Of a DNA stretch of 23,545 nt, positions 5,784 to 23,384 are shown piece after piece (positions within the stretch are counted from its first letter, which is position 1; each line of letters begins with the position of its first letter). The notes beneath the pieces were generated by a model. That model worked only from the letters and a program-made list of their open reading frames with translations, did no database searches and was not told the origin of the DNA. The stretch comes from a virus. A program made the position numbers and the translations under genes. The stretch covers positions 1-23,545 of IMG/VR virus record IMGVR_UViG_3300034093_003369. One strand, given 5' to 3'.

Positions 5784-5784
5784 T

Positions 5785-5792: not shown

Positions 5793-5810
5793 TCCAAGCA
5801 AAGGTATTAG

Positions 5811-7913
5811 ATGGCTATTAATCGTATTTCCGGTAATATTTTACAGGACAATTTAGTTCGTGGCGCCAACCTGGCCATTCAAGGCAACTTATTTTTTGTA
5901 GACGTTGTCAACACTCGCCTTGGCGTAAACACTAGTTCAACCACAGCCACATTGACCGTTGCTGGCAATGCTGCCATTTCTACAACTCTTAACGTAAGCG
6001 GAAACGCCACTGTTGGTAATTTGCAAACGTCTGGGTTATTGACTGCAACTGGTGGATTAATTGCAACTGGTAATGTCACTGGTAATGGCGTGACCCTGTC
6101 AGCCAATGCCATCTCGGCAGCATCTGGTGTACTTAACTTAGGATCCAGTGCAAACATTAAAATTACTGGCGGATCTGCAGATTATGTGCTTGCCACTGAT
6201 GGATCTGGAAATGTATCCTGGATCGCTGGCAATGCCATTGTTGGAGTATTAGGCAATGTCATTTCTATGGGAACCAACTCTCTTGGCAATCTTGTTAGTA
6301 ATGCAGTTACATTGACTACATCAACAACTGTAACTGATGGTATTACACAACTAAACACAGTACTTGGTAAACTAGTTCCGGCTAGTCCAACAAATTTTCC
6401 TGGTAGTCCAGGAACTCTAGCAATTGCTAGTGTTAGTTCATATCGCATGACTAACATTACTCAAACAGATAACACACCCGGTGCCAATAAAAACGTAGCT
6501 GCTGGAACCACAGTGTCAACTGTGCGCAGAGCCACAACATACACAACTAACACTTTTACTAACCTTGGTCCAGGTGACACTGGCACAATTACAGCGGTGC
6601 GTAACGGTGCCAACGTAGGTACAGTAACTTTGAACACTGGCGCTAGCCCAAGTGGCAACGGTACTTACGGCGGCAATCTTGTGATTACCAACAACTACGA
6701 TTATAACGTAGCCAATGCAAACATAGCCGCAGGATTTTGGTATGTGTTTACTTCTACTATTTCTGGAACTGCATCGCCTACCGGTTGGAATGAAATTTAT
6801 ATTGCTGACAGTGCTACATCAAATACATCAACTGCTGTGTGGTACTACGACAATTCAAGTCCAAGCACACCAAGTTTTAGTTCAACAACAATGGCAGTAG
6901 GCGGGTCTACTACACTGCTATACTCAAGCACGATCCCGCACTATACAAATGCCACCCAGTTTAACATTGGGACCACTGTAGCCAATGCGTCTGGTAACAT
7001 GTATCCAACCTCAAATACATTGGCATCAGGCACAGCCGCTGGTGCGTTTGCCGCACCAGCCAGCGTGAACTACAACGCAAGTAACGTGGGTAGCAACACC
7101 CTCAATTCATTTCAGTCAGCAAGTTTTACAACCACAGCCAACGTGACCACAGGGTTTGGCGCCAGCTCTACAGGGCCACAACTCAGCGTAAACAACAGTT
7201 ATTCAACAGGAACACTGACTCTAACTACAGCATTGGCTAACACAGTATTATGGAAATCAGGAACAGCCACTGCCATTGATGAAGGCAACATTGTTATAAC
7301 ATCCGTGGGCACAGGATCTGGAAATGCAGTGCGTATCATTAATCCAGGAACAGGTAATAATCCAGGATACACAGCCAATGCCACGTCATTCAACAGTCAA
7401 AGTTCAACACTACAAACTTATGATGCCACTGTGGTTGGATCAAGTAGTCAAGGCGTGTTAAAACACGATCAAACAAATTATTCAACTGGCTATTTGCCAG
7501 CTGGCCCAGATTTAAGTGCAGGACGATCGGGCACACAGTATTTTACATTTAAGTTTGTGCGAACAGACGTGAGTAAATTTGATATTACCTATGCAGGCAA
7601 CGTGGCCGGAATGTGGGTGGCACTACCTGGAAGTGTGATTGACGCTAGTTCAGGCGCCAATGGCTGGATCGATATGTCCGCGGCCTATGGCGGCGCAGGA
7701 TACCCGGGTGTTAACAGCCCAGGCAATGGGTCAGATGGTTGCAGCCTTGGTGGAGTAGTAACGCTCAACGTAAACACAGCGTCTGTTAGCAAAACATGTA
7801 CCTTTGGCACAGTGTCAAGCTCAAGCACCGCCACCAACGAAATTTACGTTAGAATTGCTCTAACGTCAGGCCAAACAGTGACTGGCCTATCACTCAAGGC
7901 AGCGAGTAACTAA
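5811..7913 (+). CDS. Tail-fibre-like protein (700 residues)
   Basis: The N-terminus MAINRISGNILQDNLVRGANLAIQ then LFFVDVVNTRLGVNTSSTTATLTVAGN (about 1-55) is the standard start of many marine T4-like fibre proteins. Next come fibre repeats (NATVGNLQTSGLLTATGGL, TGNVTGNGVTLS) and ADYVLATDGSGNVSWIAGN (about 124-142). The middle, from VTDGITQLNTVLGKLVP, is a large Thr/Ser/Asn-rich beta region without repeats. The last ~120 residues (KFDITYAGNVAGMWVALPG, GWIDMSAAYGGAGYPGVNSPGNGSDGCSLGG, then EIYVRIALTSGQTVTGLSL) resemble a C-terminal domain recurrent in these phages, a plausible receptor-binding or trimerisation head. The stop overlaps the next start (TAATG). No frameshift is visible. Fibre identity is secure; its position on the virion is not. 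Confidence 0.86.
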   Translation: MAINRISGNILQDNLVRGANLAIQGNLFFVDVVNTRLGVNTSSTTATLTVAGNAAISTTLNVSGNATVGNLQTSGLLTATGGLIATGNVTGNGVTLSANAISAASGVLNLGSSANIKITGGSADYVLATDGSGNVSWIAGNAIVGVLGNVISMGTNSLGNLVSNAVTLTTSTTVTDGITQLNTVLGKLVPASPTNFPGSPGTLAIASVSSYRMTNITQTDNTPGANKNVAAGTTVSTVRRATTYTTNTFTNLGPGDTGTITAVRNGANVGTVTLNTGASPSGNGTYGGNLVITNNYDYNVANANIAAGFWYVFTSTISGTASPTGWNEIYIADSATSNTSTAVWYYDNSSPSTPSFSSTTMAVGGSTTLLYSSTIPHYTNATQFNIGTTVANASGNMYPTSNTLASGTAAGAFAAPASVNYNASNVGSNTLNSFQSASFTTTANVTTGFGASSTGPQLSVNNSYSTGTLTLTTALANTVLWKSGTATAIDEGNIVITSVGTGSGNAVRIINPGTGNNPGYTANATSFNSQSSTLQTYDATVVGSSSQGVLKHDQTNYSTGYLPAGPDLSAGRSGTQYFTFKFVRTDVSKFDITYAGNVAGMWVALPGSVIDASSGANGWIDMSAAYGGAGYPGVNSPGNGSDGCSLGGVVTLNVNTASVSKTCTFGTVSSSSTATNEIYVRIALTSGQTVTGLSLKAASN

Positions 7914-9175
7914 TGGCCATATCAATAGCACAATATGTTGACTTGCTGTTTAAAAAGCTACAAGGGGTAGCTAAAACAGCCAACAGCACAGTCAAAGGTG
8001 CCAGCAATGAAAGTATTGCTAGTCCAGCGTTTTTACGTGGAGACATTGTATGGGTGGAATCAAACCAAATTGGAAACACTGCTCAGGCAATTGCAGGAAT
8101 TTCCACTGCCTACAGAAACGGCAGCGCAGTAGAATGTGTAGCAGATACCACAGTGCCTCCGATTGGCGGCATCCGTCCCACTTGGTTAACTAACGAAACA
8201 TATTGGATACCACAAGAATTTGGCGCCACCTGGCTGCCAAAAGTCTTTGTTGGGCCAAGTGCTGCCGCCAACATTGAAGCCACTGGTACACAGATATTTT
8301 CTGCTGGTATTGGTGGAGTTGGTGAATATTACTTTGACACACAAGCTGGAGTATTGAACTTTATCGGGGAAACCATACCCACAGTACTTACAGCAGGCAA
8401 TGTTGTTTATGTAGCGGGTTATCAATATTCAGGATTGCTTGGGACCACAACCCTGCCAGGCAATACCACAATTGGTAACTTGGTAATAGCAAATACAACA
8501 ATAACTACCAATCAAGTAACTGGTAACATTAATTTAGAACCAACTGGTAACGGAGTTGCCATTATCGATACTACAACAGGATTGGTGTTGCCAACAGGAA
8601 ATACAACCCAACGTCCAGCAAGCCCAGATCAGGGCACAATACGATTTAATACCGGGTCAACAGACGTGGAAGTTTGGGATGGCACTCAGTGGACAGGAAT
8701 TGGCGGAGCATCTGCCGCCATCACCAATCAGTACATCACCGGGGACGGAAGTAACACCGTTTTTACACTTGACCAGGATACTAGTGCCGCAGCCATTATT
8801 GTCAGCACCAACGGTGTGGTACAGTTCCCAGATGTGGCATACACAGTCACTGGCAACCTGATCACATTTGCTGAAGCACCAACCGCAACCGATGTCATTG
8901 ATGTTAGATTTACTGCAATGCTGAACACAGTCAATGCTATCACCAATGCAACTGGACAAGAGCTGACAATTACTGTGCCCGGGGTGGTAAATATCACAAA
9001 TACACACAGCCTACAGTTGCCAACATACACAGTGAGTCAGGCCACTTCATTGGGCAATACTGCAACAGGGCAGGTTATATATGTATCCAATGGTGACAGC
9101 GGTAATCCTTGCCTGGCTGTTTATTCGGGCAGCACCTGGAAAAGAGTGGTTTTAGGTGCCACTATCAGCACATAA
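7913..9175 (+). CDS. Conserved virion/fibre protein (420 residues)
   Basis: The first ~175 residues (MAISIAQYVDLLFKKLQGVAKT, VKGASNESIASPAFLRGDIVW, YWIPQEFGATWLPKVFV, TGTQIFSAGIGGVGEYYFDT, AGVLNFIGETIP) match, from memory, an N-terminal domain conserved in marine T4-like phages next to fibre genes. It is followed by GNTTIGNLVIANTTI (about 181-196), the RFNTGSTDVEVWDGTQWTG module (about 243-261), the GDGSNTVFTLDQDTSAAAIIVSTNGVVQF module (273-330), and a C-terminal TATGQVIYVSNGDSGNPCLAVYSGSTWKRV segment. Translation is probably coupled to the upstream fibre through TAATG. The N-terminal domain may be the particle anchor and the rest the exposed part; this is inference. Confidence 0.84.
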   Translation: MAISIAQYVDLLFKKLQGVAKTANSTVKGASNESIASPAFLRGDIVWVESNQIGNTAQAIAGISTAYRNGSAVECVADTTVPPIGGIRPTWLTNETYWIPQEFGATWLPKVFVGPSAAANIEATGTQIFSAGIGGVGEYYFDTQAGVLNFIGETIPTVLTAGNVVYVAGYQYSGLLGTTTLPGNTTIGNLVIANTTITTNQVTGNINLEPTGNGVAIIDTTTGLVLPTGNTTQRPASPDQGTIRFNTGSTDVEVWDGTQWTGIGGASAAITNQYITGDGSNTVFTLDQDTSAAAIIVSTNGVVQFPDVAYTVTGNLITFAEAPTATDVIDVRFTAMLNTVNAITNATGQELTITVPGVVNITNTHSLQLPTYTVSQATSLGNTATGQVIYVSNGDSGNPCLAVYSGSTWKRVVLGATIST

Positions 9176-9223
9176 TTATTTCTTTTAATTTACAATCCCA
9201 GCAGTGGAGTTTTTGCCAGACAC

Positions 9224-9231
9224 CATAAATA
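9224..9231 (+). promoter_or_regulatory. Late promoter box before the 1325-residue fibre gene
   Basis: CATAAATA followed by GGTGG lies in the 77-base gap after the previous gene, 21 bases before the ATG at 9253. GGAG at 9241-9244 serves as ribosome site. No clear terminator precedes it. Confidence 0.7.
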
Positions 9232-9252
9232 GGTGGATATGGAGAACTCATC

Positions 9253-12200
9253 ATGGCCGTGACTAGAATTAAAAATAATCAGATTACCGACGCAACCATC
9301 AATGCGGCGGCAAAGGTAACCAGCTACAGTATTACATCGGGCCTGCTGGCCAATAGTCTTACATATGGATCAGACTTAACAATTACTGGAAACTTAACAG
9401 TTAACGGTAGTTCCACAACAATCGACACAGTTGACTTGATTGTTGAAGATCCCATAATTATCCTGGCGGCAAACCAAACTGGTGCACCGTCAGTAGACAT
9501 TGGTTTTATTGGAAAACGTGGCACAAGCACCAACGTGGCGTTTGTTTGGGACGAAAGTGTTGGCGCATTTTTAACCGCCTTTACCAACACAGCGGCAACA
9601 AATACAGCCATCACAATTAGTTCGTATGCTGACTTTCAGGCAGCAAACATCACATCCAACACCAACTTGGCAGTGACAGGCACAACCAGTCTTACTGGAA
9701 ATATCACTGTTGGCAACTTGTTTGTGGGCACTAGTAAAACAATTAATGTTGGTAACAACGTCATCACCAATGTTGCAACCCCAGTTGGCAACAGCGATGC
9801 AGCCACAAAAGAATATGTTGATGGCATTGCCAGCTCAGGATTCACAATTGAAGATGATACCGCAAATACCACTGTGGTTAGTAGCGGCGACACACTAGAA
9901 TTAAGAGGCACCGCAAACGAAGTTGGTGTGTACATTACCGGCGTAGATCAAATTACTTTTGGCTTACCTGACGATGTCACAGTTACAGCAACACTCACAG
10001 CCGGTAATTTGAGCACAGGTGGTACTGCAAATGTAACCGGCAACATCACTGGTGGTAACTTGAGCACAGCCGGGCAAGTGAGTGCCACAGGCAATGTCAC
10101 AGCTGGCAACTTGATCACTGGTGGATTGATTAGTGCAACTGGTGCAATCACAGGTGGCAGCACAATATCGGCAGCTGGTAATGTTACTGCCGGTAACGTA
10201 CTGACAGGCGGATTAGTCAGCGCGACTGGCAATGTTAACGGTGGTAATTTAATCAGTGCGGCGTTGGTACAAGGCGTTACTGTCAGTGCAAGCGGCAACA
10301 TCACTGGTGGTAATTTAATATCTTCAGTTGTTACTAACTCAACTGCAATGACCATCAGCACCGCGTCTGGCAATCTTAACCTCCAACCCACTGGTAACAT
10401 TGTATTAAACAGCAAGTATATTAATGGTGTAAACCAGCCAGTGCAAGACAACGATGCGGCTTCTAAGATCTATGTGGACAACATGGTATCAACTCAGTTG
10501 GCGTATCACGAAGCTGTTTTGGCAGCCACAACAGGCACATTGGCCGCAGCCACAGGTGGTACTATTACGTACAACAACGGAACTGCTGGTGTGGGTGCTA
10601 CACTGACAGTAGCAGGCGGTACGTTCAACTTGATTGATACTGCCAACGTTCAAACTGCAGGCACACGTATTCTGGTCAAGAACCAAGCTGACGCCACACA
10701 AAACGGTGTGTATGAATACACCAGCTCAACTGTTATCACTAGAACAACAGACGCTGACACATATGGTCCTAACAGTGCAACTGACTTGAGCATTAACGAC
10801 TATTTCTTTGTGCAAAGCGGAGATGTCAATAAAGGTTCTGCATATATTGTTGATGCACCGTCAGGCGTTATTACTTTTGGTACTAGTAACATTGAGTTTG
10901 CTCAATTCTCAAGCTCACAGACCTACACAGCCAACACCAGTGCTGGTCTAGTATTAAACAGCACTGTATTCAGTGCCAAGGTAGACAACAATACCACAGC
11001 ATTTGACGGTGGTGGCAACATCAGCATCAAAGTTGGTGCAAACTTGACAACACCAAACATTGGTGCGGCAACTGGTACAAGTCTAAGTGTCACAGGCAAC
11101 GTAGATGGTGGTAACTTAAATACCGGTGCTCAAGTAGTGGCAACTGGTAATATCACTGGTGGTAACTTGATCACTGCTGGTTTGGCTACTGTAACTGGTA
11201 ATGTTAATACCAGTGCAGGTGTACTGGCAACTGGCAACGTAACAGGTGGTAATGTCAACACAGCTGGATTGATTACTGCAACTGGCAACATCACTGGTGG
11301 CAATTTGATCACAGGTGGATTGATTACTGCTACTGGCACTATTACTTCTACTGCCAATATTGCAGGTGGCAACTTAACTACTGGTGCTCAGGTATCGGCA
11401 GGTGGCAACATCACTGGTGGTAACTTAATTACTGTTGGACTAACCACAGTAACTGGTAACATCACTGGTGGCAATTTGATCACAGGTGGATTGATTACTG
11501 CTACTGGCAACGTAGATGGTGGTAATGTCAACGCAGCCGGTAACGTCACTGGTGGCAACATTACCACAGCTGGACAAGCCAATCTAGGCAACATTCGTAT
11601 CAGTGGCGACACTATTACTGGTACAAATGGTCGTGTAAACATTAATTCGGCAGCAGCTGACGTTGACTTTTCAGTCAGTGGCACAGCAGCCAATGTGTTC
11701 TACATAGATGCCGGGACAAATAGTGCTAGTTTTGGTAATGCCACTCAGATAACTAACGCAATTGCATCGTTCCAGACCACAACTTCTATTAAAGTTCCAG
11801 TGGGCACCACTGGACAACGTCCAGGCGCTGGTGTTACTGGTATGGTACGTTTCAACACCAGCGTCAACAACTTGGAATTCTACGATGCCAACAGCTGGCA
11901 AACTGCAGGTAGCCAGTTCACTGTTATCACAGCTAATACGCAATCTGGTGACGGAGTGCAGACAGCATTTACTTTGCCGGCAGCAAGTACCACAGCTGGC
12001 ACCATTGTTGCTATCAACGGTGTGGTACAGATTCCGGTAACTGCGTACTCGGTGGCCAATACCACATGTACATTTACTGAAGCACCAGTCAGCACCGACG
12101 TCATTGATTTCCGTGTGTTGGCAACAACATCAACTGTGACTGGCTTGTCTAGTTCCAGCGGTGCAATTGTAGAATTGAATCCAACTCTAATAGATGTTGA

Positions 12201-13230
12201 TCTTACTGGTAATATAATTCCAACTTCAAATGTTGCATACAATTTAGGTAATACAACAAATAGATTTAATGACTTGTATTTGTCAGGGTCAAGCTTGTAT
12301 CTAGGCAATGTTATTATGAAGACTGCAACTGGTAACACAATTGCATTCTTCCAACCAGATGGAACAACACCAGCTACTATTGCGGCATCCAGTGTAGACA
12401 CTACACAGATTGCCAGCGGCACATCGGGTGTAGCTGTTGTTTCGTCAGGTGGCAACATTCGTGCCAACGTTGCTGGCACAACTGTACAAACTATCAGTGC
12501 AGGATTGGTGGCAATTACAGGCGACTTGAGTGTGACCGGCAATGCAACACTGAGTGGTAACATCCTAGGCGACAGAGTACAAAACGGTACAACCAGTTTT
12601 GACATTCAAACACCGAACGGAAATGCCAACATCACAGTGGGCGGTACTAGCAATGTGGCTGTATTTGCTACAACTGGTGCTTTTGTAACTGGTGTACTAA
12701 GTGCAAGTGGCAACGTAACTGGTGGCAACTTGAGTGTTAGCACAGGAACCATCACTGGTGGCAACATTGTCAATGCCAACGGCAACGGCATTGGTAACAT
12801 TGGTAGTTCCAGTGTTTACTTCAACACTGTGTTTGCCAAAGCAACAAGTGCACAATACGCTGACTTGGCAGAGAAATATGTTGCTGACGCAGAGTACGCA
12901 CCAGGAACAGTGTTGGCATTTGGTGGTGACCAGGAAGTTACGCTAGCAACAGACGCTGGGTCAACTCGTGTGGCAGGTGTTGTTAGTACAAACCCAAGTT
13001 ACATCATGAACGCTGGGCTAACTGGCGAACATGTGGCAATGGTGGCACTACAAGGTCGTGTACCATGTCGAGTAGTTGGCGCAGTTGCCAAAGGTGACTT
13101 GATGGTGGCTGCCGGTAACGGTGCTGCCAAAGCTGATAACACGGCACGTGCAGGTACTATCATTGGCAAGGCCCTGGAAAACTTTGATGGTGCAGAAGGC
13201 ACAATTGAAGTTGTAATTGGTCGAAACTAA
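9253..13230 (+). CDS. Large modular tail fibre with C-terminal AEKY-type domain (1325 residues)
   Basis: Modules in order: anchor-like MAVTRIKNNQITDATI; TGNLTVNGSSTTIDTVDLIVEDPIIILAANQTG (45-77); DAATKEYVD (182-190); GNITGGN-type repeats (about 250-385); DAASKIYVDN (about 399-408); a collar-like module with AGTRILVKNQADATQNGVYEYTS (about 420-556); a second repeat block (about 610-790); FNTSVNNLEFYDANSW and GDGVQTAFTLPAAS (about 866-966); NVAYNLGNTTNRFNDLYLSGSSLYLGNV (about 990-1017); and a C-terminal domain from FNTVFAKATSAQYADLAEKY to IEVVIGRN (about 1185-1325). That last domain recurs in phage fibres and may relate to the G2 intramolecular-chaperone group, though I cannot see catalytic residues well enough to claim cleavage. 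Its paralogue ends the gene at 19382. A double hairpin follows the stop. Confidence 0.88.
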   Translation: MAVTRIKNNQITDATINAAAKVTSYSITSGLLANSLTYGSDLTITGNLTVNGSSTTIDTVDLIVEDPIIILAANQTGAPSVDIGFIGKRGTSTNVAFVWDESVGAFLTAFTNTAATNTAITISSYADFQAANITSNTNLAVTGTTSLTGNITVGNLFVGTSKTINVGNNVITNVATPVGNSDAATKEYVDGIASSGFTIEDDTANTTVVSSGDTLELRGTANEVGVYITGVDQITFGLPDDVTVTATLTAGNLSTGGTANVTGNITGGNLSTAGQVSATGNVTAGNLITGGLISATGAITGGSTISAAGNVTAGNVLTGGLVSATGNVNGGNLISAALVQGVTVSASGNITGGNLISSVVTNSTAMTISTASGNLNLQPTGNIVLNSKYINGVNQPVQDNDAASKIYVDNMVSTQLAYHEAVLAATTGTLAAATGGTITYNNGTAGVGATLTVAGGTFNLIDTANVQTAGTRILVKNQADATQNGVYEYTSSTVITRTTDADTYGPNSATDLSINDYFFVQSGDVNKGSAYIVDAPSGVITFGTSNIEFAQFSSSQTYTANTSAGLVLNSTVFSAKVDNNTTAFDGGGNISIKVGANLTTPNIGAATGTSLSVTGNVDGGNLNTGAQVVATGNITGGNLITAGLATVTGNVNTSAGVLATGNVTGGNVNTAGLITATGNITGGNLITGGLITATGTITSTANIAGGNLTTGAQVSAGGNITGGNLITVGLTTVTGNITGGNLITGGLITATGNVDGGNVNAAGNVTGGNITTAGQANLGNIRISGDTITGTNGRVNINSAAADVDFSVSGTAANVFYIDAGTNSASFGNATQITNAIASFQTTTSIKVPVGTTGQRPGAGVTGMVRFNTSVNNLEFYDANSWQTAGSQFTVITANTQSGDGVQTAFTLPAASTTAGTIVAINGVVQIPVTAYSVANTTCTFTEAPVSTDVIDFRVLATTSTVTGLSSSSGAIVELNPTLIDVDLTGNIIPTSNVAYNLGNTTNRFNDLYLSGSSLYLGNVIMKTATGNTIAFFQPDGTTPATIAASSVDTTQIASGTSGVAVVSSGGNIRANVAGTTVQTISAGLVAITGDLSVTGNATLSGNILGDRVQNGTTSFDIQTPNGNANITVGGTSNVAVFATTGAFVTGVLSASGNVTGGNLSVSTGTITGGNIVNANGNGIGNIGSSSVYFNTVFAKATSAQYADLAEKYVADAEYAPGTVLAFGGDQEVTLATDAGSTRVAGVVSTNPSYIMNAGLTGEHVAMVALQGRVPCRVVGAVAKGDLMVAAGNGAAKADNTARAGTIIGKALENFDGAEGTIEVVIGRN
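10000..11620 (+). repeat. Two GNITGGN-type repeat blocks within the 1325-residue fibre
   Basis: Degenerate repeats of about 36 bases encode variants of TGN-[I/V]-T-GGN-L-[I/S/N]-T-x-G. One block spans about 10000-10400 and the second about 11080-11620, separated by the collar-like module. The periodic Gly-Asn turns suggest a beta-helical or triple-beta shaft. The DNA copies differ mostly at third codon positions. Confidence 0.75.
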
Positions 13231-13233
13231 ACA

Positions 13234-13262
13234 ATTTGATAAGGGCTTGTCCCTTATCAAAT
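13234..13262 (+). other. Strong hairpin without T tract after fibre gene
   Basis: ATTTGATAAGGG (13234-13245) pairs perfectly over 12 bp with CCCTTATCAAAT (13251-13262) around a CTTGT loop. It begins three bases after the stop codon and has no T run behind it. It stands 6 bases ahead of a proper terminator, so it may protect or process the 3' end of the transcript. Confidence 0.8.
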
Positions 13263-13268
13263 AATTAC

Positions 13269-13296
13269 AAACAGGACTCTTAGTAGTCCTGTTTTT
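13269..13296 (+). terminator. Rho-independent terminator after the 1325-residue fibre gene
   Basis: AAACAGGACT (13269-13278) pairs over 10 bp with AGTCCTGTTT (13285-13294), loop CTTAGT, and the 3' arm runs into TTTTT (13292-13296). The late box for the next gene starts 4 bases later. Confidence 0.9.
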
Positions 13297-13299
13297 CTG

Positions 13300-13307
13300 A
13301 CTAAATA
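13300..13307 (+). promoter_or_regulatory. Late promoter box before the 2004-residue fibre gene
   Basis: ACTAAATA matches the last six bases of the T4-type late box. The ATG at 13328 is 20 bases downstream with AAGG as ribosome site. The same variant ACTAAATA occurs at 19353, with nearly the same spacing. Confidence 0.6.
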
Positions 13308-13327
13308 TACAATAAGGCAAAAATACC

Positions 13328-16300
13328 ATGGGTTTAACTAGGATATCGGCACAACAAATTTCAAACATTGATTACAAGCAATCAGTGCGTGTGGTCACTG
13401 TGAGCAATATTACGTTAAGTGGCGGCGCCCCGGCCACAGTTGACGGAGTTAGTCTTGTTGCTGGCGACAGAATATTGGTTACTGGGCAGTCAACCAGCAG
13501 TCAAAATGGGTTATATTCCGTCACAGTTTTGGGTGTGGGTAGTAACGGCACCTGGGCTAGAACCGGCGACGGCAATGAAACTGGAGAAATTGACAGCGGC
13601 ATGATTGTCATGGTCACTGAAGGCACAACCTATGCTGATACTCAATGGAAACTCACAACAAATGATCCTATAACAATTGGTACAACTGGGTTGACGTTTA
13701 CGCAGAATTATTCTGCCAACTCTATTTCCTCGGGCACCAGCAATGTAGTTGTGTCTAGTAATGCCAATGTGTCAGTTGCTGTGGCCGGCAGCAATGTTGC
13801 GGTATTTGCATCAACTGGGGAATATGTCACGGGCATACTAAGTGCAACCGGCAACATCACAGGTGGTAATTTAATCACCGCAGGACTAACCACAGTAACT
13901 GGTAACGTTAATACAAGTGCAGGTGTATTGGCCACAGGTAACTTAACTGGTGGCAACGTCAACACTGCTGGATTAATTTCAGCAGCTGGTAACATCACCG
14001 GTGGCAATTTAATATCTGCCGCATTGGTACAAGGCGCCACATTAAGTGCAACAGGTAACATCACCGGTGGTAACTTAAACACTGGCGGTTTAGTTTCAGT
14101 TACAGGCAACATCACTGGTGGTAATTTACTAACCAGTGGCAACATTGTTGATACAAATGCATTGTCAATTATCACAGGTTCAAGTGGTAATATCAGTTTG
14201 GCTCCTAATGGCACCAATGTATTAGTTGCTACTACCACAGGTGCCAACATCACTGGCACACTCAATGCCACTGGCAACGCCAACGTGGGCAACTTGGGTG
14301 CCGCAACTGTGACGGCTACTACACTAACAGGCACATTATCAACTGCGGCACAAACAAACATAACTTCAGTGGGCACTCTGGGTAGTTTGGCTGTTACAGG
14401 TAACATCACTTCAGGTAACCTAAGTGGCACAAATATTGTGGGCACATTGACCACAGCGGCACAAACCAATATCACAAGTGTGGGCACTTTGGGATCATTG
14501 GCAGTAACTGGCAACATCACTTCAGGTAACTTGAGTGCTACAAACCACACAGGAACCACTGTAAGTGTCACAGGTAATATCACAGGTGGTAACCTAAGTG
14601 GCACAAATATTGTGGGCACATTGACCACTGCCGCTCAAACTAATATCACAAGTGTGGGTACTTTGAGTGCATTATCAGTGACTGGTAACATCACTGGCGG
14701 CAATTTAAGCACAGCTGGTAACGTAACTGGCAGCTATATTTTAGGTAACGGTGCATTTTTATCTGGTGTTATTACCAGTGTAGCAAATATCAACAACGGT
14801 ACCAGCAATGTTACTGTAGTAAGCTCAGGTGGCAACGTCACTGTTGGAGTTGGTGGAACATCAAACGTGGCAGTATTTGCCACAACAGGTGAATATGTAA
14901 CTGGTGTTGTAAGTGCTAGTGGTAACGTAACTGGCGGCAACATTACCACTGGTGGATTGGTAACTGCTACAGGTAATGTTAATACAAGTGCAGGTGTGTT
15001 GGCTACAGGCAACATCACAGGTGGTAACTTACTAACGGGTGGCTTAGTCTCAGCTACGGGTAATATCACTGGTGGCAATCTATCAGGTACCAGTATTGTG
15101 GGTACGTTGACCACAGCCGCACAAACCAATATCACAAGTGTGGGCACTTTGGGTAGTTTGGCAGTCACAGGTAATATCACAGGTGGTAATTTAAACACAG
15201 GTGCTCAAGTAGTGGCAACTGGCAACGTCACAGGTGGCAATTTAGTAACTGCTGGACTAATTTCAGCAACTGGTAACGTAAGTGGTGGAAATTTAAATGT
15301 CACAGGTAATATTGTTGACACTGGAGCATTGACAATCATCACTGGTGCAAGTGGCAATGTTAATCTAGCACCCAATGGCACAAACGTCGTAGTTGTGACC
15401 ACAACTGGTGCTAATATTACAGGTACTCTCAATGCCACTGGTAATGCCAATGTGGGCAATCTAGGTGCCGCAACAGTGGTGGCAACTACGCTAACTGGTA
15501 CATTATCAACTGCCGCACAAACAAATATTACTAGCGTGGGTACACTGGGTAGTTTGGCAGTTACTGGCAACATCACAGGTGCTAATATAATTGCCACACT
15601 CAATGGAAGTGGCGCCAATGTTACTAGCATCAGTGCCACAAACATCAGTTCAGGCACACTGGCACAAGCAAGATTGGCAAACTCAGCAGTGACACTAGGC
15701 TCAACAGCACTCACACTTGGTGCAACGGTGACCACAGTGGCTGGCTTGACCAGTGTGACATCAACTACATTCGTTGGTGCATTAACTGGGGCAGCCACCA
15801 CAGCAGCCACAGTGACCACTGCGGCACAACCTAATATTACGTCAGTTGGTACATTGACAAGTGTTTCTTCTTCAGGCAATGTCACAGGTGGTAATTTAAT
15901 CACAACTGGACTTGCTAGTGTTGGCACAACACTAGACGTAACCGGCAACGCCAACGTGGGTAACCTAGGAACGGCAGGTCAGATCACAGCCACAGGTAAC
16001 ATTACTGGTGGTAATTTATTAATTAATACTAATGCTGTTATCACAGGTAACTTGACAGTTCAAGGTAATACCACAACTATTAATTCTAATACAATTACCA
16101 CCAACGATTTGAACATCACTGTTGGTAACAATCAAAATACAGGTACGGCACTAAACAATGCCGGTATTGATGTTGGTAACAATAACCTTGCCACCTGGAG
16201 ATTCAATAACGCAACCACGTCATGGCAGAGCAACATTGCTGTGATGCCAACAGCCAATGGTACATTGGCACTGGGAGGCACAAGCAATTATTGGGGTGCA

Positions 16301-19300
16301 GCCTATGTAACCACATTAACAGCCAGTGGTAATGCCAACGTAGGCAATTTGGGTGCTACTGCTGTTGTTGCAACTAACTTAACAGGAACGCTACAAACTG
16401 CCGCACAAACCAACATTACTTCGGTGGGTACTTTAGGTAGTTTAAGTGTAACCGGTAATATCACAGGTGGCAATATCTTAGGTGGTGCCAATGTCAATGC
16501 CACAACTCACACAGGAACCACAGTTTCGGTAACCGGTAATATCACAGGTGGCAATATCTTGGGTGGTGCCAATGTCAATGCCACAACTCACACAGGAACC
16601 ACAGTTTCGGTAACTGGCAACATCACAGGTGGTAACATACTCGGTGGTGCCAATGTCAATGCCACAACTCACACAGGAACCACAGTAAGTGTCACAGGCA
16701 CAATTACCGGTGGTAATCTTAATATTTCGGGAAATGCGGCTGCTGCCACACTTTTATCTGTGACAGATACAGCACCACAGGGATCCAGCAAAACAGTTAA
16801 TATTGTTAATGGTACAAACGGCCTTGCAGTTGTGGCCAACATTACCAATGGTTCTTATAACAGTTTACAATCTACTGGCGATATAGCATTGCTGGCTACT
16901 GGTACTAGCATAGGTAACGTAGGACTTTCAATTATACCTTGGGCAGCCGCCACTAGTGGTATAAAAATGAACACAGTATCAAATGTGACCACTATAACAC
17001 TAGCGGCAACAACAGTGTCAATTGTTGGTAACGTCACAGCTGGCACTGGTAACATTACTGGTGGTAATTTAATCACAGCCGGGCTAATCACAGCAACTGG
17101 TAACGTCAGTGGCGGAAACTTGAATGTAACAGGTAATATTGTTGACACAGGTGCATTGACAATTATCACAGGCGCAAGTGGCAACGTTAGTTTGGCACCC
17201 AATAGCACAAATGTATTGGTTGCAACTACTACTGGTGCTAATATCACAGGTACACTCAACGCCACCGGTAATGCCAACGTGGGTAATTTAGGTGCCGCAA
17301 CAGTGGCGGCTACCACACTAACAGGTACGTTATCAACTGCGGCACAAACCAATATCACTTCGGTGGGTACATTGGGCAGTTTGGCAGTGACTGGTAATAT
17401 CACTTCGGGCAATCTAAGTAGCACAAACATTGTGGGAACATTGACCACAGCCGCACAAACCAATATCACTTCGGTGGGTACATTGGGTAGTTTAAGTGTT
17501 ACAGGCAACATCACAGGTGGCAATATCTTGGGTGGTGCCAATGTCAATGCCACAACTCACACAGGAACCACTGTGAGTGTAACTGGCAATGTAACTGGTG
17601 GCAACTTAACCACTGCTGGATTAATTACAGCTACTGGCAACATCACCGGCGGTAATATAAGTGGCACAAATATTGTGGGTACGTTGACCACTGCGGCACA
17701 GACCAATATTACTTCATTGGGTACATTGGGATCATTGAGTGTCACTGGCAACATCAGTGGCGGTAATTTATCAGGTACTAGCATTGTGGGTACTTTAACC
17801 ACAGCCGCACAAACTAACATTACTAGTGTTGGCACTCTGGGCAGTTTGAGTGTGTCTGGCAACATCACAGGTGGTAATATAACCACAGCTGGTAACTTGG
17901 CAATTCCAACAGCAACTGCCAACACCAACACAACACAGGCTGCAACCACAGCATTTGTGGTGGGCCAGGCTGGTGTGCTAACTCCAGTAACAATTGGCAC
18001 AGCCGCAGTTGGCACAAGTTTAAAATATGCCAGAGAAGACCACACACACGGAGGTGTTGGGTCAGCTGTGGCAGGTACTGGTATTTCTGTAAGTGCGGCA
18101 ACAGGCGCAGTTACTTTCACCAACTCTGGAGTGACCAGTGTTGTAGCAGGCACAAATATTGCAGTCAGCGCCGCAACTGGTGCAGTCACAGTCAGCGTTA
18201 CTGGCACAGTTCCAACAGCCACCACAGCTGGCACTGTGACCACAGCGGCACAACCAAATATCACAAGTGTTGGTACACTGACAAGTATTTCTTCTTCGGG
18301 TAATGTCACAGGTGGTAATTTAATCACAGCCGGGTTAATCACAGCAACTGGTAACGTCAGTGGTGGAAACTTGAATGTCACAGGTAATATCGTTGACACT
18401 GGAGCATTGACAATTATCACTGGTGCAAGTGGCAACGTTAGCCTGGCACCCAATGGAACCAATGTGTTGGTGGCCACAACCACAGGTGCCAATATTGCAG
18501 GCACACTCAATGCCACCGGCAATGCCAATGTGGGCAATCTGGGTGCCGCAACAGTGGTGGCAACTACACTAACAGGTACATTATCAACTGCCGCACAAAC
18601 AAATATTACTAGCGTGGGTACTTTGGGTAGTTTAAGTGTGTCAGGTAACATCACAGGTGGCAACTTTGTTGGAATCTTAAATGGATCTGGGGCCAACGTT
18701 ACCAGTATCAGTGCCACTAATATCAGTTCGGGTACTTTGGCACAAGCACGACTGGCTAATGCCGCAGTGACACTAGGCTCAACAGCACTCACATTGGGTA
18801 GCACAGTAACCACAGTGGCTGGTTTGACCAGTGTAACGTCAACCACATTCGTTGGTGCGTTAACTGGAGCAGCCACCACAGCAGGTACAGTAACCACAGC
18901 CGCACAACCTAACATCACAAGTGTTGGCACATTGACAAGCATTTCTTCTTCAGGCAACGTCACTGGTGGTAATTTAATCACAGCTGGTGTTGCGTCAGCA
19001 ACTGGTAATATCACAACCTCCAACTTTTTTGTGGGCAATGGTGCGTTTTTGACAGGAATTAGTGCGGCGGTTTCGGTATCAAAAATTGAAAATGGTAACT
19101 CAAATGTTCAGATACAACCCGCTAACAGTAACGTTACAGTTACTGTGGCTGGACTTGCAAACATTGCAACCTTTACTACTGGGTCGTTAACACTGGTTGG
19201 TGGATTTGCAAATCCAAAAACTATTTCGTTAAATATTTCACTGCCCGCAAGTGTCAATGCCATGTTAGTTGGGCCAATTACCATAGCTAACGGAGCAAGT

Positions 19301-19342
19301 TTAACAGTTCCAGACTCGTCAAGTTCTTACATTTATATGTAA
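13328..19342 (+). CDS. Giant repeat-rich tail fibre (2004 residues)
   Basis: The protein starts MGLTRISAQQISNIDY, then carries a collar-like module (VDGVSLVAGDRILVTGQ, SSQNGLYSV, WARTGDGNETGEI, about 20-128). From about residue 170 to 1900 it is largely repeat: about thirty GN[I/V][T/S]GGN units and fourteen TAAQ[T/P]NITS[V/L]GTL units. Islands of non-repeat sequence are GNLTVQGNTTTINSNTIT with WRFNNATTSWQSNIAV (about 906-1005), a region with GLSIIPWAAATSGIKMNT (about 1145-1236), and NTNTTQAATTAFVVGQAG with LKYAREDHTHG (about 1529-1576). The C-terminus (SLPASVNAMLVGPITIANGASLTVP) is a natural-looking fibre end, so the gene is intact and not cut off. It lacks the AEKY-type domain that ends the two flanking fibre genes. 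Probably a long trimeric shaft; which fibre it forms is unknown. Confidence 0.87.
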   Translation: MGLTRISAQQISNIDYKQSVRVVTVSNITLSGGAPATVDGVSLVAGDRILVTGQSTSSQNGLYSVTVLGVGSNGTWARTGDGNETGEIDSGMIVMVTEGTTYADTQWKLTTNDPITIGTTGLTFTQNYSANSISSGTSNVVVSSNANVSVAVAGSNVAVFASTGEYVTGILSATGNITGGNLITAGLTTVTGNVNTSAGVLATGNLTGGNVNTAGLISAAGNITGGNLISAALVQGATLSATGNITGGNLNTGGLVSVTGNITGGNLLTSGNIVDTNALSIITGSSGNISLAPNGTNVLVATTTGANITGTLNATGNANVGNLGAATVTATTLTGTLSTAAQTNITSVGTLGSLAVTGNITSGNLSGTNIVGTLTTAAQTNITSVGTLGSLAVTGNITSGNLSATNHTGTTVSVTGNITGGNLSGTNIVGTLTTAAQTNITSVGTLSALSVTGNITGGNLSTAGNVTGSYILGNGAFLSGVITSVANINNGTSNVTVVSSGGNVTVGVGGTSNVAVFATTGEYVTGVVSASGNVTGGNITTGGLVTATGNVNTSAGVLATGNITGGNLLTGGLVSATGNITGGNLSGTSIVGTLTTAAQTNITSVGTLGSLAVTGNITGGNLNTGAQVVATGNVTGGNLVTAGLISATGNVSGGNLNVTGNIVDTGALTIITGASGNVNLAPNGTNVVVVTTTGANITGTLNATGNANVGNLGAATVVATTLTGTLSTAAQTNITSVGTLGSLAVTGNITGANIIATLNGSGANVTSISATNISSGTLAQARLANSAVTLGSTALTLGATVTTVAGLTSVTSTTFVGALTGAATTAATVTTAAQPNITSVGTLTSVSSSGNVTGGNLITTGLASVGTTLDVTGNANVGNLGTAGQITATGNITGGNLLINTNAVITGNLTVQGNTTTINSNTITTNDLNITVGNNQNTGTALNNAGIDVGNNNLATWRFNNATTSWQSNIAVMPTANGTLALGGTSNYWGAAYVTTLTASGNANVGNLGATAVVATNLTGTLQTAAQTNITSVGTLGSLSVTGNITGGNILGGANVNATTHTGTTVSVTGNITGGNILGGANVNATTHTGTTVSVTGNITGGNILGGANVNATTHTGTTVSVTGTITGGNLNISGNAAAATLLSVTDTAPQGSSKTVNIVNGTNGLAVVANITNGSYNSLQSTGDIALLATGTSIGNVGLSIIPWAAATSGIKMNTVSNVTTITLAATTVSIVGNVTAGTGNITGGNLITAGLITATGNVSGGNLNVTGNIVDTGALTIITGASGNVSLAPNSTNVLVATTTGANITGTLNATGNANVGNLGAATVAATTLTGTLSTAAQTNITSVGTLGSLAVTGNITSGNLSSTNIVGTLTTAAQTNITSVGTLGSLSVTGNITGGNILGGANVNATTHTGTTVSVTGNVTGGNLTTAGLITATGNITGGNISGTNIVGTLTTAAQTNITSLGTLGSLSVTGNISGGNLSGTSIVGTLTTAAQTNITSVGTLGSLSVSGNITGGNITTAGNLAIPTATANTNTTQAATTAFVVGQAGVLTPVTIGTAAVGTSLKYAREDHTHGGVGSAVAGTGISVSAATGAVTFTNSGVTSVVAGTNIAVSAATGAVTVSVTGTVPTATTAGTVTTAAQPNITSVGTLTSISSSGNVTGGNLITAGLITATGNVSGGNLNVTGNIVDTGALTIITGASGNVSLAPNGTNVLVATTTGANIAGTLNATGNANVGNLGAATVVATTLTGTLSTAAQTNITSVGTLGSLSVSGNITGGNFVGILNGSGANVTSISATNISSGTLAQARLANAAVTLGSTALTLGSTVTTVAGLTSVTSTTFVGALTGAATTAGTVTTAAQPNITSVGTLTSISSSGNVTGGNLITAGVASATGNITTSNFFVGNGAFLTGISAAVSVSKIENGNSNVQIQPANSNVTVTVAGLANIATFTTGSLTLVGGFANPKTISLNISLPASVNAMLVGPITIANGASLTVPDSSSSYIYM
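15221..15915 (+). repeat. Long duplicated cassette, copy 1
   Basis: This stretch of about 695 bases recurs at 18299-18993 at a constant offset of 3078 bases. Landmark positions (15257/18335, 15314/18392, 15873/18951) keep exactly the same offset, so there is no net insertion or deletion. It encodes VSGGNLNVTGNIVDTGALTI, ASGNV-x-LAPNGTNV, TAAQTNITSVGTLGSL, NGSGANVTSISATNISSGT, LAQARLAN and TFVGALTGAATTA. A shorter relative covers about 17085-17400. Confidence 0.85.
16448..16690 (+). repeat. Perfect-frame tandem repeat, three units of 81 bp
   Basis: Units begin at 16448, 16529 and 16610; each encodes the same 27 residues, from VTGNITGGNILGG through ANVNATTHTGTTVS. Units 1 and 2 differ by one base (TTA/TTG, both Leu). 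Unit 3 differs from unit 1 in nine codons, all synonymous. A fourth, dispersed copy lies at 17498-17578, 1050 bases after the first. Confidence 0.93.
17498..17578 (+). repeat. Dispersed fourth copy of the 81-bp unit
   Basis: It encodes the same 27-residue unit in frame and differs from the tandem units at a few third positions, for example GTT ACA GGC at its start and ACT GTG AGT at its end. It lies outside the tandem array and follows a TAAQTNITSVGTLGSL unit, just as the first tandem copy does. Confidence 0.88.
18299..18993 (+). repeat. Long duplicated cassette, copy 2
   Basis: This is the downstream partner of 15221-15915, shifted by 3078 bases, which is a whole number of codons. The two copies keep the same length and most of the same residues; small changes include ANITGT/ANIAGT and LGATVTT/LGSTVTT. 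Confidence 0.85.
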
Positions 19343-19352
19343 CTGGATCTAA

Positions 19353-19360
19353 ACTAAATA
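19353..19360 (+). promoter_or_regulatory. Late promoter box before the 283-residue fibre gene
   Basis: ACTAAATA followed by CTTTAAC lies 21 bases before the ATG at 19382, with AAGGA as ribosome site. It is the same box variant as at 13300. No terminator is visible between it and the previous gene. Confidence 0.58.
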
Positions 19361-19381
19361 CTTTAACAAGGAAAAAACAAA

Positions 19382-20233
19382 ATGCCATTAATTTTAGACG
19401 GCACAACAGGTGTATCAGCTTCGGGCAACGTTACCGGCGCATTTCTATTTGGTAACGCAAGCACACTCACTGGTATCAGTTCAAGCAGAATTTTCAACGG
19501 TACAACCGAAGTTAACGTGGGAACTTCTGGCGGCAGCGCCAACATCAGCGTAGGTGGCACGTCGAACGTGGCTGTGTTTGCCACAACTGGTGTTACTGTA
19601 ACTGGGGTGGTTTCAGCTACTGGTAACGTCAGTGGCGGCAACTTAAACGTAACTGGATCAATTGTTGACACAGGTGTCTTGGAATTGATTTCTGGATCCA
19701 ATGGTAACATCGCTTTGAGTCCAAACGGAACAGGTGTTATTGTGGCCAACAAAGACATACGTAATGGTCAGGCCAACGGCGTGGGCAACATTGGCACAGT
19801 GGGCGGATTTTTCAATACAGTTTTTGCCAAATCAACTTCAGCCCAGTACGCTGACGTCGCTGAAAAATATCTAGCAGATGATGACTATCCTGTTGGCACA
19901 GTGTTGTCGATTGGCGGAGCCAGTGAAGTAACTGCATCTAAAACCTATCATGGATCTGATGTAATTGGCACTGTTAGCGATAAGCCAGCCTATGTCATGA
20001 ATTCAGGCCTAGGTGGAAACTTTGTTGCTGTGGTGGCCTTGTTGGGTCGAGTACCTGTTCGAGTAGTTGGATCTATCAATCCAGGAGACTTGCTGGTAGC
20101 AAGTAGGCAGCATGGCATTGCAACTGCGTTAGATCGTGACAGTTATCAACCAGGTTGTGTTATTGGCAAGGCCTTGGGAAGTTACAATAGTCAAGAACCT
20201 GGTGTAATTGAGGCAATCGTGGGTCGCATTTGA
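19382..20233 (+). CDS. Short fibre or fibre tip with AEKY-type C-terminal domain (283 residues)
   Basis: The first ~135 residues are fibre modules: MPLILDGTTGVSASGNVTGAF, LFGNASTLTGISS, VGGTSNVAVFATTG, SATGNVSGGNLNVTGSIVDTG and LSPNGTGVIVANKDIRNGQ. The last ~143 residues (FNTVFAKSTSAQYADVAEKYLADDDYPVGTVL to IEAIVGRI) are a paralogue of the C-terminus of the 1325-residue fibre, with GTVSDKPAYVMNSGL and RVPVRVVGSINPGDLLVAS as matching landmarks. Because the intervening 2004-residue protein lacks this domain, this gene may supply a separate tip. Start is supported by AAGGA and by MPLILDGTTG, a common fibre start. The stop lies inside a terminator hairpin, and the 3' end overlaps the convergent Nudix gene by 43 bases. 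Confidence 0.86.
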   Translation: MPLILDGTTGVSASGNVTGAFLFGNASTLTGISSSRIFNGTTEVNVGTSGGSANISVGGTSNVAVFATTGVTVTGVVSATGNVSGGNLNVTGSIVDTGVLELISGSNGNIALSPNGTGVIVANKDIRNGQANGVGNIGTVGGFFNTVFAKSTSAQYADVAEKYLADDDYPVGTVLSIGGASEVTASKTYHGSDVIGTVSDKPAYVMNSGLGGNFVAVVALLGRVPVRVVGSINPGDLLVASRQHGIATALDRDSYQPGCVIGKALGSYNSQEPGVIEAIVGRI

Positions 20234-20637
20234 TCTCTGACTAGATCAATTTTGTTCATAACAACATCAAAATTCACAGTGTTCCAAAGGCCAGGATGCA
20301 TGGGCTTGGGCCATGCTGTAGTGTCAATCCAAGCGTACCCTAGGTGTTCGTGATTCAAGCAAGGTTGGAACTCGTGCTCAACACAACAGAAAAATGTGTG
20401 ATACACAAAGTTATTGTCTTGACTGGTGAATTGTTCAATTGGCACCAACCGCACATAGTTGGGCATTGATCCCAGTTCTTCCCGACACTCTCTATTGATT
20501 GCGTCAAGCAAACTTTCTCCTGATTCAACTTTACCACCAGCTAGTCCCCAAGTCATTGGATACTTGGCGTCATTTCGCATCAAATAAAGATATCTTTGTG
20601 TATCAAGACTATAAAACCATACACCAACTGCATTCAT
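20191..20637 (-). CDS. Nudix hydrolase
   Basis: The 148-residue protein carries a near-complete Nudix box at residues 35-57: G-x5-E-x7-REcrEElG, written GKVESGE then RECREELGS. The only departure is a Ser where a hydrophobic residue is usual at the end. Nudix enzymes hydrolyse nucleoside diphosphates linked to another group, and the Glu residues bind the metal. The substrate is unknown; phage examples include NTP cleaning, NADH or ADP-ribose hydrolysis and RNA decapping. The start at 20637 is chosen because ATGA overlaps the gene 15 stop and MNAVGVWFYSLDTQRYLYL is the natural beginning of the fold; a longer frame to 20706 would need TTG and add unrelated residues. Coupling to gene 15 makes it a late product. 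The 3' end overlaps the convergent fibre gene by 43 bases. Confidence 0.9.
   Translation of the reverse strand: MNAVGVWFYSLDTQRYLYLMRNDAKYPMTWGLAGGKVESGESLLDAINRECREELGSMPNYVRLVPIEQFTSQDNNFVYHTFFCCVEHEFQPCLNHEHLGYAWIDTTAWPKPMHPGLWNTVNFDVVMNKIDLVRDQMRPTIASITPGS
20230..20253 (+). terminator. Terminator at the end of the fibre island
   Basis: TTGATCT (20230-20236) pairs perfectly with AGATCAA (20243-20249) around a CTGACT loop, followed by TTTT (20250-20253). The stop codon TGA (20231-20233) is part of the stem. The whole element is also coding sequence for the C-terminus of the Nudix protein on the other strand. Confidence 0.7.
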
Positions 20638-22016
20638 AATACCAATGTCCACTCGCCACCTGGATATAAACCTTCGTAACTCTTGACCCACTCTTGACCA
20701 GTCCAACGGTATTGAAGACCAGTTGTGATGTTTGTTACAAATTGTATGTTATTGTAATGTACTCCGGCTGCAAATGCAACCACCCAAGAGGATCCGTCAA
20801 ATTCGACTATGTCGTTGGCTTCGGCAACCAAGTCACCCCAGGCCAAGGCTGGAACAGGATTGTCTAGATCGCCAATGGCATTCAACACAAGATATCGTTG
20901 TCCTGTTGAAGCATTGGGAAGACCACTACCTGGGCCACTCAGCAATGGATCAATCACAGCATTTATAGCCGGTAATGTATTTTGTGGAATTGTGTCTGTG
21001 TCAACGTCAAACAACATAAATCTATCATCAGTTGGATCAAATGTCACATGACCAATAATCTCGGTAGTAGTATCCCAGGGATTGGTAAGTCGTATTTGAC
21101 TAATACCAGGTCTCAATACTCCGTACATGCCAGCAATGGCTCCCCAGAACTCGTTGCTAGGGGGACTAACTGGTGGCTGTACACTGGCATTGGTTGGATT
21201 GACCACAGCAGATACTTTTAATGCTTGCAGTTTGTTCCCAATCAACAGCACCTGATATCCAAACGGCGTAAAAGCCTGTCTAGTACCCAGTAACAAATCA
21301 TTGTTGGCAATAGCATTAACAGCATCACCGTTGCTGTCATGGATGGATGCAATAATACGTTCAATCACACCCAGCTTTTTAACCTTGGCTGGACTTGATA
21401 TCCAGATTGGCAAACTAAATCTCATGGTCATGATGTCTATGGGATCATCAGTTCCTACTGGGATTGATCGACTGGACCATGTGACTTGATCTAGTTCAAC
21501 CACACTCAAACTGGTCCAGTCAAGATAATTATCGGTGCTTTGTACTTCAAGTGCAGGGTTAAACAGCGTAGAAATTTGCTCAAACAATTGAAATTTTTGA
21601 TTGGTGTTGCTGGTCCAGATATCGCAATTGATACCCATTTTGTAAGGAACTGGCATCAAGCGTTCAATCGTGAATGCATTGCCCTGTGAGGTCTCGTATG
21701 TTTCTGAATCAGGGTCATACGATCTTTGTCGAACTTGAATATTGCTAACAAAGTAAGGATCCTGCATTCGCGGACGATCGTATTCCATGCCATTGATATA
21801 AAATGTTATCAATGGTGTGCTGGGCAAACTACTAGATGAGTTTTGTTGTAGAACCGTTTGTACTTGACGAGTGGAGTCACCATATCTCACTGGCACACGT
21901 AACAAAGTAGGAGCCCCAGCGGCATCTCGACCGTATTCTACTTGAAAGTTTGAAAAGATTCTTGTAAACTGTAACAAGAATCTTCGTATCTGTTCGTCAT
22001 AAAAGAACTGTTGCAT
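20634..22016 (-). CDS. 15: Tail sheath stabiliser / completion protein, gp15-like
   Basis: The 460-residue product has a gp15-like core in its first ~225 residues: FFYDEQIRRFLLQFTRIFSNFQV (4-26), RVPVRYGD (40-47), FYINGMEYDRPR (72-83), MPVPYKMGINCDIWTSNTNQ with FQLFEQISTLFNP (121-154), and MRFSLPIWISSPAKVKK (198-214). These match the T4 gp15 pattern of FYN..FRRY, RVPI.Y, P.PIKM.YELSIFT, F.IVEQILPYF.P and a final F...GW..PP. T4 gp15 sits at the top of the tail, where it seals sheath and tube to the neck. T4 gp15 is about 270 residues; here ~190 extra residues form a C-terminal extension with YLVLNAIGD and FDGSSWVVAF and YRWTGQEWVKSY segments. It follows gene 14 by three bases, with AGGAAG as ribosome site. 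Confidence 0.87.
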   Translation of the reverse strand: MQQFFYDEQIRRFLLQFTRIFSNFQVEYGRDAAGAPTLLRVPVRYGDSTRQVQTVLQQNSSSSLPSTPLITFYINGMEYDRPRMQDPYFVSNIQVRQRSYDPDSETYETSQGNAFTIERLMPVPYKMGINCDIWTSNTNQKFQLFEQISTLFNPALEVQSTDNYLDWTSLSVVELDQVTWSSRSIPVGTDDPIDIMTMRFSLPIWISSPAKVKKLGVIERIIASIHDSNGDAVNAIANNDLLLGTRQAFTPFGYQVLLIGNKLQALKVSAVVNPTNASVQPPVSPPSNEFWGAIAGMYGVLRPGISQIRLTNPWDTTTEIIGHVTFDPTDDRFMLFDVDTDTIPQNTLPAINAVIDPLLSGPGSGLPNASTGQRYLVLNAIGDLDNPVPALAWGDLVAEANDIVEFDGSSWVVAFAAGVHYNNIQFVTNITTGLQYRWTGQEWVKSYEGLYPGGEWTLVL

Positions 22017-22019
22017 TTA

Positions 22020-23384
22020 TTATCTTCCTGGGGGTCTTGGATTTGGCGGCAAATTGCCACCGTCATCACCATTGTCAGCTCTGGGTTTGAGTAGTTCACT
22101 AAGGCTCTGACGACTTGGTATATTACCAAGATCTGTAGTTGGTACAGTGTATGTATTGTTAACAAAGCTTGAGCGCAATGTTTTGTTGTTAGGACCATTG
22201 TTGAGGTCAGTTCTAACATTGTCCTCAATCTTGACCCAGGAACCGCCATTGAATCTAAACAATCGATTGGGGAAGTAATCCAATCGAAGAGCATACTGAC
22301 CCTCTCTTGGATTAGCCGGAAAACTCACACCTGGGGTAACTGGCAATCCGTTGGGCGCAATCCCATCCCCAGTCAAGTAACCCATGGTGTAGCCATCGCT
22401 AGTTGGAGTCTGCGATGCATCACTAGAATTTATATCCTGCGATGCATTGATTACCGATGAATCCGCAGTGGGCCCGCCAGGGTTGGCCGGTGATCCATCC
22501 GGATTGGTTGGGAAAATATAAAACTTCACAGTGTCGTATCCTGATAGCGGAACTTCGATGTCTGCTTGTAACAGGATTGAATCATTGATTTCGTAATCGC
22601 GTGGACGTGTGCTTGCACGGTCAGCAGTGGTTGGTGGATCTATTTCCAGCCAGTATTCAGTATTGGTAATATCAGTCCCCACAGGTGTGCTCTTTAGAGA
22701 TTGATAATACACATCACCAGCATTGACAATACTGCCCGGTGGATAGAAATTACCAGAATCCCATATTTGTTCACTAACAAATGGTTTGTTCACAATCTCT
22801 TGATATTCCTGTGCATTGACCATTGGTGTGGCCTTGATGCGCCACAAGTGTGGCATCCAGGTTTGGCTAAAACCTTCGCTGGCAAAGGCAGCATCCTGAA
22901 CCACATAGTAACGAGGTAATGCTCTGGGAATAGCAGCATCTAGAGGATTGATGTCTCGTAGGTTTGGAATTTCCAAAACATCACCACTCATGAGCTTACG
23001 TCCAATGGTGTCGATCATGTTGTTGTAATGAAATGTAATAAACAACGTGTCGTTGTTCAAGAACAATCCAAATTGACTTAGATCAAAATCAACATCTTGG
23101 GCTCGATAAACACCACGCATTTGGTAAATGTCTGGATCATATGCACGATCTCTATTTTCCAACAACAGCAAGTCTTGAATAAACAATGGGTTCTCTTGAC
23201 TGTACACCGGCTGAGTAGCATCGTAATTACCACTTTCAGCTGAATCCTCGCCCCCAGTTTTTGGTCCCAGGTATTTGTGGATATAGATATCCACCCCGCC
23301 CACAGTGTACATTTCTGCAATGGTTCGATCAAAAAATTGGTAATCGTTTGTGCGATTTGGGCGATAAAGTGACAGTCTTGGCAT
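22020..23384 (-). CDS. 14: Neck protein gp14-like
   Basis: The first ~200 of 454 residues match the gp14 neck protein of T4-like phages: MPRLSLYRPNRTNDYQFFDR, DLLLLENRDRAYDPDIYQMRGVY (71-93), FDLSQFGLFLNNDTLFITFHYN (100-121), KLMSGDVLEIPNLRD (130-144), and YYVVQDAAFASEGFSQTWMPHLWRIKATPM (159-188). T4 gp14 has the same order around QMRGVE, FSNFGMQVQDEVTLSI and EGDLIYFP and is about 256 residues. It joins the DNA-filled head to the tail. The ~250-residue extension includes QYALRLDYFPNRLFRFNGGSW (about 355-380) and ends in a Gly/Pro-rich tail NLPPNPRPPGR. The order 14-15 is as in T4. The late box lies 7 bases from the ATG and no ribosome site is visible. Confidence 0.87.
   Translation of the reverse strand: MPRLSLYRPNRTNDYQFFDRTIAEMYTVGGVDIYIHKYLGPKTGGEDSAESGNYDATQPVYSQENPLFIQDLLLLENRDRAYDPDIYQMRGVYRAQDVDFDLSQFGLFLNNDTLFITFHYNNMIDTIGRKLMSGDVLEIPNLRDINPLDAAIPRALPRYYVVQDAAFASEGFSQTWMPHLWRIKATPMVNAQEYQEIVNKPFVSEQIWDSGNFYPPGSIVNAGDVYYQSLKSTPVGTDITNTEYWLEIDPPTTADRASTRPRDYEINDSILLQADIEVPLSGYDTVKFYIFPTNPDGSPANPGGPTADSSVINASQDINSSDASQTPTSDGYTMGYLTGDGIAPNGLPVTPGVSFPANPREGQYALRLDYFPNRLFRFNGGSWVKIEDNVRTDLNNGPNNKTLRSSFVNNTYTVPTTDLGNIPSRQSLSELLKPRADNGDDGGNLPPNPRPPGR

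Follow-up and report, generated by a model that had tools for sequence, protein, structure and literature searches.

The window, by which we mean the whole 23.5-kb IMG/VR virus record analysed here, opens with a gene for a Gp23 major capsid protein (PF07068, E = 9.4e-99), which also matches phrog_138 (major head protein). A series of repeat-rich structural genes follows on the plus strand, and the window closes on the minus strand with tail-sheath-related and structural genes, the former at 20634–22016 (phrog_11196, tail sheath, 2e-86; phrog_227, tail sheath stabilizer, 2.8e-22). Possessing both a Gp23-family capsid protein and contractile-tail structural genes close by, the virus belongs to the T4-like (Gp23-type) phages. 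Its closest Gp23 relatives among annotated phages, at 67–71% identity, are those of the large phages Phosso (469 kb), Vibrio phage 2.275.O (349 kb) and PA5oct (287 kb). Two further minus-strand genes were noted. One (20191–20706) encodes a NUDIX-domain protein (PF00293, 1.7e-17), and its frame overlaps the ends of both neighbours. The other (1792–2940), opposite in direction to the structural-gene run, encodes a 382-aa protein that, by the appearance of its sequence, may consist of a TPR-repeat-like part followed by a glycosyltransferase-like one.

Between gp23 and a relative of the tail-sheath-stabiliser gene, an open frame on the plus strand (13328..19342) encodes a repeat-built, virion fibre-like protein of 2004 aa. 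The whole protein has no match in Pfam, PHROG or PDB (phmmer against PDB chains found none at E ≤ 0.1). Its first 150 residues match phrog_11518 (tail fiber, 1e-31) and phrog_2647 (head decoration, 2e-28). The N-terminal domain (approximately residues 17–126; 13376..13705, plus strand) has tblastn matches in 70 phage records and is similar to a solved capsid decoration protein (PDB 9nx3, 7.5e-7); it is common to annotated fibre and decoration proteins. Repeated modules make up most of the remainder of the protein, in which 30 boxes of the TGNITGGN type occur.

Three of these modules stand in tandem as 81-bp units on the plus strand (unit 1, 16448..16528; unit 2, 16529..16609; unit 3, 16610..16690), as seen from translation and independently from TRF (period 81, 3.0 copies), and a dispersed fourth copy, recognised by translation, lies on the same strand at 17498..17578. 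All four copies translate to the identical 27-aa peptide VTGNITGGNILGGANVNATTHTGTTVS. A single silent base (TTA/TTG, codon 11) separates unit 1 from unit 2. Unit 3, about 85% identical to unit 1 at the DNA level, differs from either by 12 bases in nine codons, and all of these changes are silent, including TCG/AGT at codon 27. The dispersed copy has 9–10 silent differences from the tandem units. The initial annotation, which reported three tandem units with synonymous differences only and the same base counts, is confirmed in both respects. Of the single substitutions that could strike the unit at random, only 28% would be silent; without constraint, 12 silent changes out of 12 would have a probability of about 2e-7 if the changes are treated as independent. 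A Nei–Gojobori pN of 0.037 among the four identical peptides is an artefact of the mutational paths between the TCG and AGT serine codons. The other modules tested in the gene show the same low pN/pS (0.09–0.16), and the 81-bp trio is not exceptional inside its own gene.

We asked whether the peptide is equally conserved in other phages. Loci were chosen either by the left part of the unit or by its right end, and only the codons not used for picking were tested. Over 69–134 loci obtained by such unbiased searches, dN/dS of the unit was about 0.06–0.11: for loci picked by the left half, the right half gave about 0.08–0.10, and for those picked by the right end, the left part gave about 0.06–0.11. 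Moreover, 151 of 255 left-anchored copies end exactly in ANVNATTHTGTTVS, ANVNA is almost invariant, and peptide variation in relatives is confined to a few positions (THTGT to THTGA, LFTGT or TLTGT), which is far from a peptide that varies freely. Since codons outside the search anchors show low dN/dS and the peptide remains mostly the same, the strong constraint that had been proposed for the 27-aa unit is real.

The silent differences themselves are unevenly distributed. Among the four copies in the window they fall only in codons 1–4, 8–11 and 25–27, and codons 12–24 (39 bp) are DNA-identical in all copies of the window and of its sister contigs. An invariant run of 13 codons is longer than expected by permutation (p = 0.0004, or 0.0009 with codons weighted by their variability between phages). 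Such a core might reflect selection acting directly on the 39 bp, perhaps because they are a signal for recombination or packaging, and its sameness in every one of these copies fits that idea. However, in the fetched loci the core has about 170 distinct DNA spellings among at least 244 copies, and between loci the silent sites of the core are about as variable as those of the flanks. A DNA-level constraint on the core was therefore rejected, and we give it hardly any credence. As the core codons do vary between phages, recent common descent or conversion explains their identity in the window best.

The flanking blocks point in the same direction. Codons 3–4 read either GGTAAT or GGCAAC, and codons 8–11 read either GGCAATATCTTA/G or GGTAACATACTC. 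All four combinations of these two blocks are seen, in the window copies starting at 16448, 16610 and 17498 and in a copy at position 2782 of L269, within the downstream part of this sister contig. Two blocks in all four combinations are a classical sign of recombination. The initial annotation held that the DNA had simply drifted, and in its fuller form this account would comprise an old tandem duplication, purifying selection and independent silent drift, with one recent duplication or conversion of units 1 and 2. It agrees with the silence of every difference and with the low dN/dS across phages, and in many relatives silent divergence within a locus (pS 0.47) is nearly as large as between loci (0.60). 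On the other hand, it does not fit silent differences that are clustered around 13 consecutive codons that are the same in four copies yet free to vary between phages, nor two blocks seen in all four combinations. We regard this account as improbable, and the idea of simple drift is not supported as stated. Given the clustering and the four combinations, TCG/AGT and the other changes are better read as exchange between copies than as independent point mutations. The unit copies thus appear to have recombined or been converted, which makes simple drift an incomplete account. The copy at L269 (2782–2862), the fifth in our comparison, is a mosaic of silent blocks resembling those of unit 1, unit 3 and the dispersed copy. 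We also considered whether serine codons of the TCN type mark internal units and those of the AGY type terminal ones, and rejected this, as arrays show no such pattern.

Sister contigs provide a second view of the array. Contig 3300042889_001381 agrees with the window at every base compared, from 5100 to 18286, where it ends; 3300042992_001180 is identical over 15842–18286 and diverges afterwards. Both carry the three-unit array letter for letter. A third contig, 3300044634_003983, has a different upstream sequence and only two units: unit 2 is absent, and a unit with 2 silent differences from unit 1 is directly followed by an exact unit 3. From within its array this contig shares 1725 bp with the window (16562..18286, plus strand) without a mismatch, and from the right edge at 18286/18287 its downstream sequence is diverged. 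Its upstream sequence is that of 3300044640_001789, to which it is identical over 648 bp; the latter contig has a gp23 89% identical to that of the window, and most of its other aligned stretches are 67–75% identical. The unit number (2 vs 3) and the switch of upstream sequence at the array are read from assemblies only. The simplest reading of these sequences is that two co-circulating phage types recently shared a 1.7-kb piece of the gene, one edge of which lies in the array, and that one type gained a unit or the other lost one. The sister array, in which one unit-1-like copy directly precedes unit 3, also supports the earlier suggestion that units 1 and 2 were recently duplicated.

Could short-read assembly of two co-occurring phages with repeats in common have created the unit number, or the joins seen at the array and at 18286? 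Contig ends do cluster: 18286 is the end of one contig, 18160 or 18173 the start of others, and L306 ends at 16677, inside unit 3. In addition, an assembler would collapse extra identical units. The contig end at 18286 and the start at 18160 form a 127-base overlap like that of an assembly-graph branch, so the upstream and downstream joins could be mis-phased. Within this segment (18160–18286, 127 bp) several contigs of different samples end or begin, and it has two alternative continuations. Against an artefact, the three-unit array recurs unchanged in contigs of two other samples, and the first unit of the two-unit allele has private silent differences common to two contigs of different samples. 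Furthermore, 3300042900_000855 (L072) runs unbroken across 18286, covering 17000–22233 in one piece at 99.96% identity. Taken with these contigs, an assembly origin seems rather unlikely, slightly more so than the drift account.

We next looked at how far the unit extends beyond the window. A degenerate search found the core peptide in at least 120 IMG/VR stretches, which, with the window, makes at least 247 copies from 121 sources. Judging from these sequences, the 27-aa unit is a module with a wide distribution among uncultured phages, occurring in more than 100 other contigs. The fetched loci contain 252 single units as well as arrays of two (n = 40), three (n = 11) and four (n = 4). The exact core was absent from 84,980 bacterial and archaeal species genomes, and neither blastn nor tblastn detected homologues of the array in annotated phage records, although the BLAST low-complexity filter may hide some. 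Nor does the unit have a significant Pfam or PHROG match. With no significant entry in the libraries searched, the repeat family appears to be undescribed. None of the loci picked by gp23 (L129–L207) has the unit, most of them stopping short of that downstream position. One of the closest gp23 relatives, G001 (97%), has a syntenic gene with the same N terminus and without the unit, so the unit is dispensable.

To get an idea of the structure, we generated an AlphaFold2 model of the monomer from 30 aligned arrays. The model has a regular strand pattern in each unit, with pLDDT of about 70–77 inside the repeats; taken as a whole, its confidence is moderate (mean pLDDT 63, pTM 0.53). It has no significant structural match in PDB or in the viral library. 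A beta-rich shaft is plausible on the basis of this model. Together with the preceding results, it leads us to propose that the unit is probably a recombining 27-aa beta-strand repeat, one of several interchangeable modules (17, 27, 36–37 and about 70 aa) from which a T4-like phage would build the shaft of a very long fibre or decoration protein on its virion. Each unit presumably adds one beta-rich shaft segment, and if so, the peptide would be held by the needs of folding and stacking. At the common VTGNITGGN boxes, units could be added, removed or swapped through unequal crossing-over, gene conversion or template switching, both within one genome and between co-infecting phages. As a result, the length of the fibre and the domains it carries might change and the repeat would stay intact. 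A bolder idea, which we put forward tentatively and consider less likely than not, is that this single 27-aa repeat serves many uncultured phages as a shared recombination cassette: selection would hold the peptide, its DNA copies would keep being duplicated, converted and passed between co-infecting species, and the repeat would be a natural joint for making new fibres.

The array falls into a class already known, that of fibre-type phage proteins whose tandem repeats recombine. Tetart et al. (1996, J Mol Biol 258:726) reportedly described duplications of a small domain in the T4 long tail fibre adhesin gp37. The present case likewise involves a small repeated fibre domain of changing copy number in a T4-type phage. 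However, the domain duplicated in gp37 reportedly lies near the receptor-binding tip, with a change of host range, whereas the 27-aa unit sits in the middle of a protein of 2004 aa, and the two are likened by description, not by sequence.

Three other systems are comparable in part. Tandem repeats of BACON domains occur in tail-associated proteins of crAss-like phages and evolve as single domains are duplicated or horizontally transferred (PMC6949934). These too are tandem domain arrays in uncultured phages, but the BACON domain has a name and relatives in bacteria, unlike the unit described here, with its lack of Pfam and PHROG matches and of exact cores in the bacterial and archaeal genomes searched. 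The Periscope Proteins of bacteria have near-identical tandem repeats in a stalk of variable length, for which intragenic recombination has been proposed (PMC8201768). Repeat number may vary here too, to judge from the two versus three units in our sister contigs (assemblies only). Periscope repeats, however, are folded domains on the bacterial surface that are highly identical at the DNA level, and here this is true only of units 1 and 2; unit 3 (about 85%) and, with a pS of about 0.47 inside a locus, most relatives are strongly diverged at silent sites. Finally, schizotequatroviruses, which are large T4-like vibrio phages, have recombination hotspots at long-tail-fibre genes (PMC12028318). 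Both cases concern large T4-like phages and fibre sequence exchanged between co-circulating phages, but there the exchange has been described for genes or alleles and here for a 27-aa repeat module. As an example, the array is clean and countable: it illustrates how phages can make fibre genes longer or re-assort them with the repeat protein sequence unchanged. The short peptide tag GANVNATTHTGTT can be used to find such genes in uncultured phages. If the exchange between the sister phages is real, fibre-module recombination would be directly measurable in nature.

Some features around the array were also recorded. Two neighbouring genes (9253–13230 and 19382–20233) share a related C-terminal domain (YADLAEKY..PGTV) that matches phrog_22593/6427 and bears a weak likeness to the Peptidase_G2 autoproteolytic domain; one of the two, coding for a protein of 1325 aa, is likewise made of TGNITGGN repeats. 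Upstream of the array lies a non-repetitive domain (16001..16333, plus strand; haplotype 'A' upstream) with relatives in 42 IMG/VR loci, and in the 12 more diverged of these that were inspected, the NATTHTG[TAS]T unit was not found in frame. The domain immediately 3′ of the array (16718..17032, plus strand) has a diverged relative, L369 (69%), which also has three tandem 27-aa units a short way upstream.
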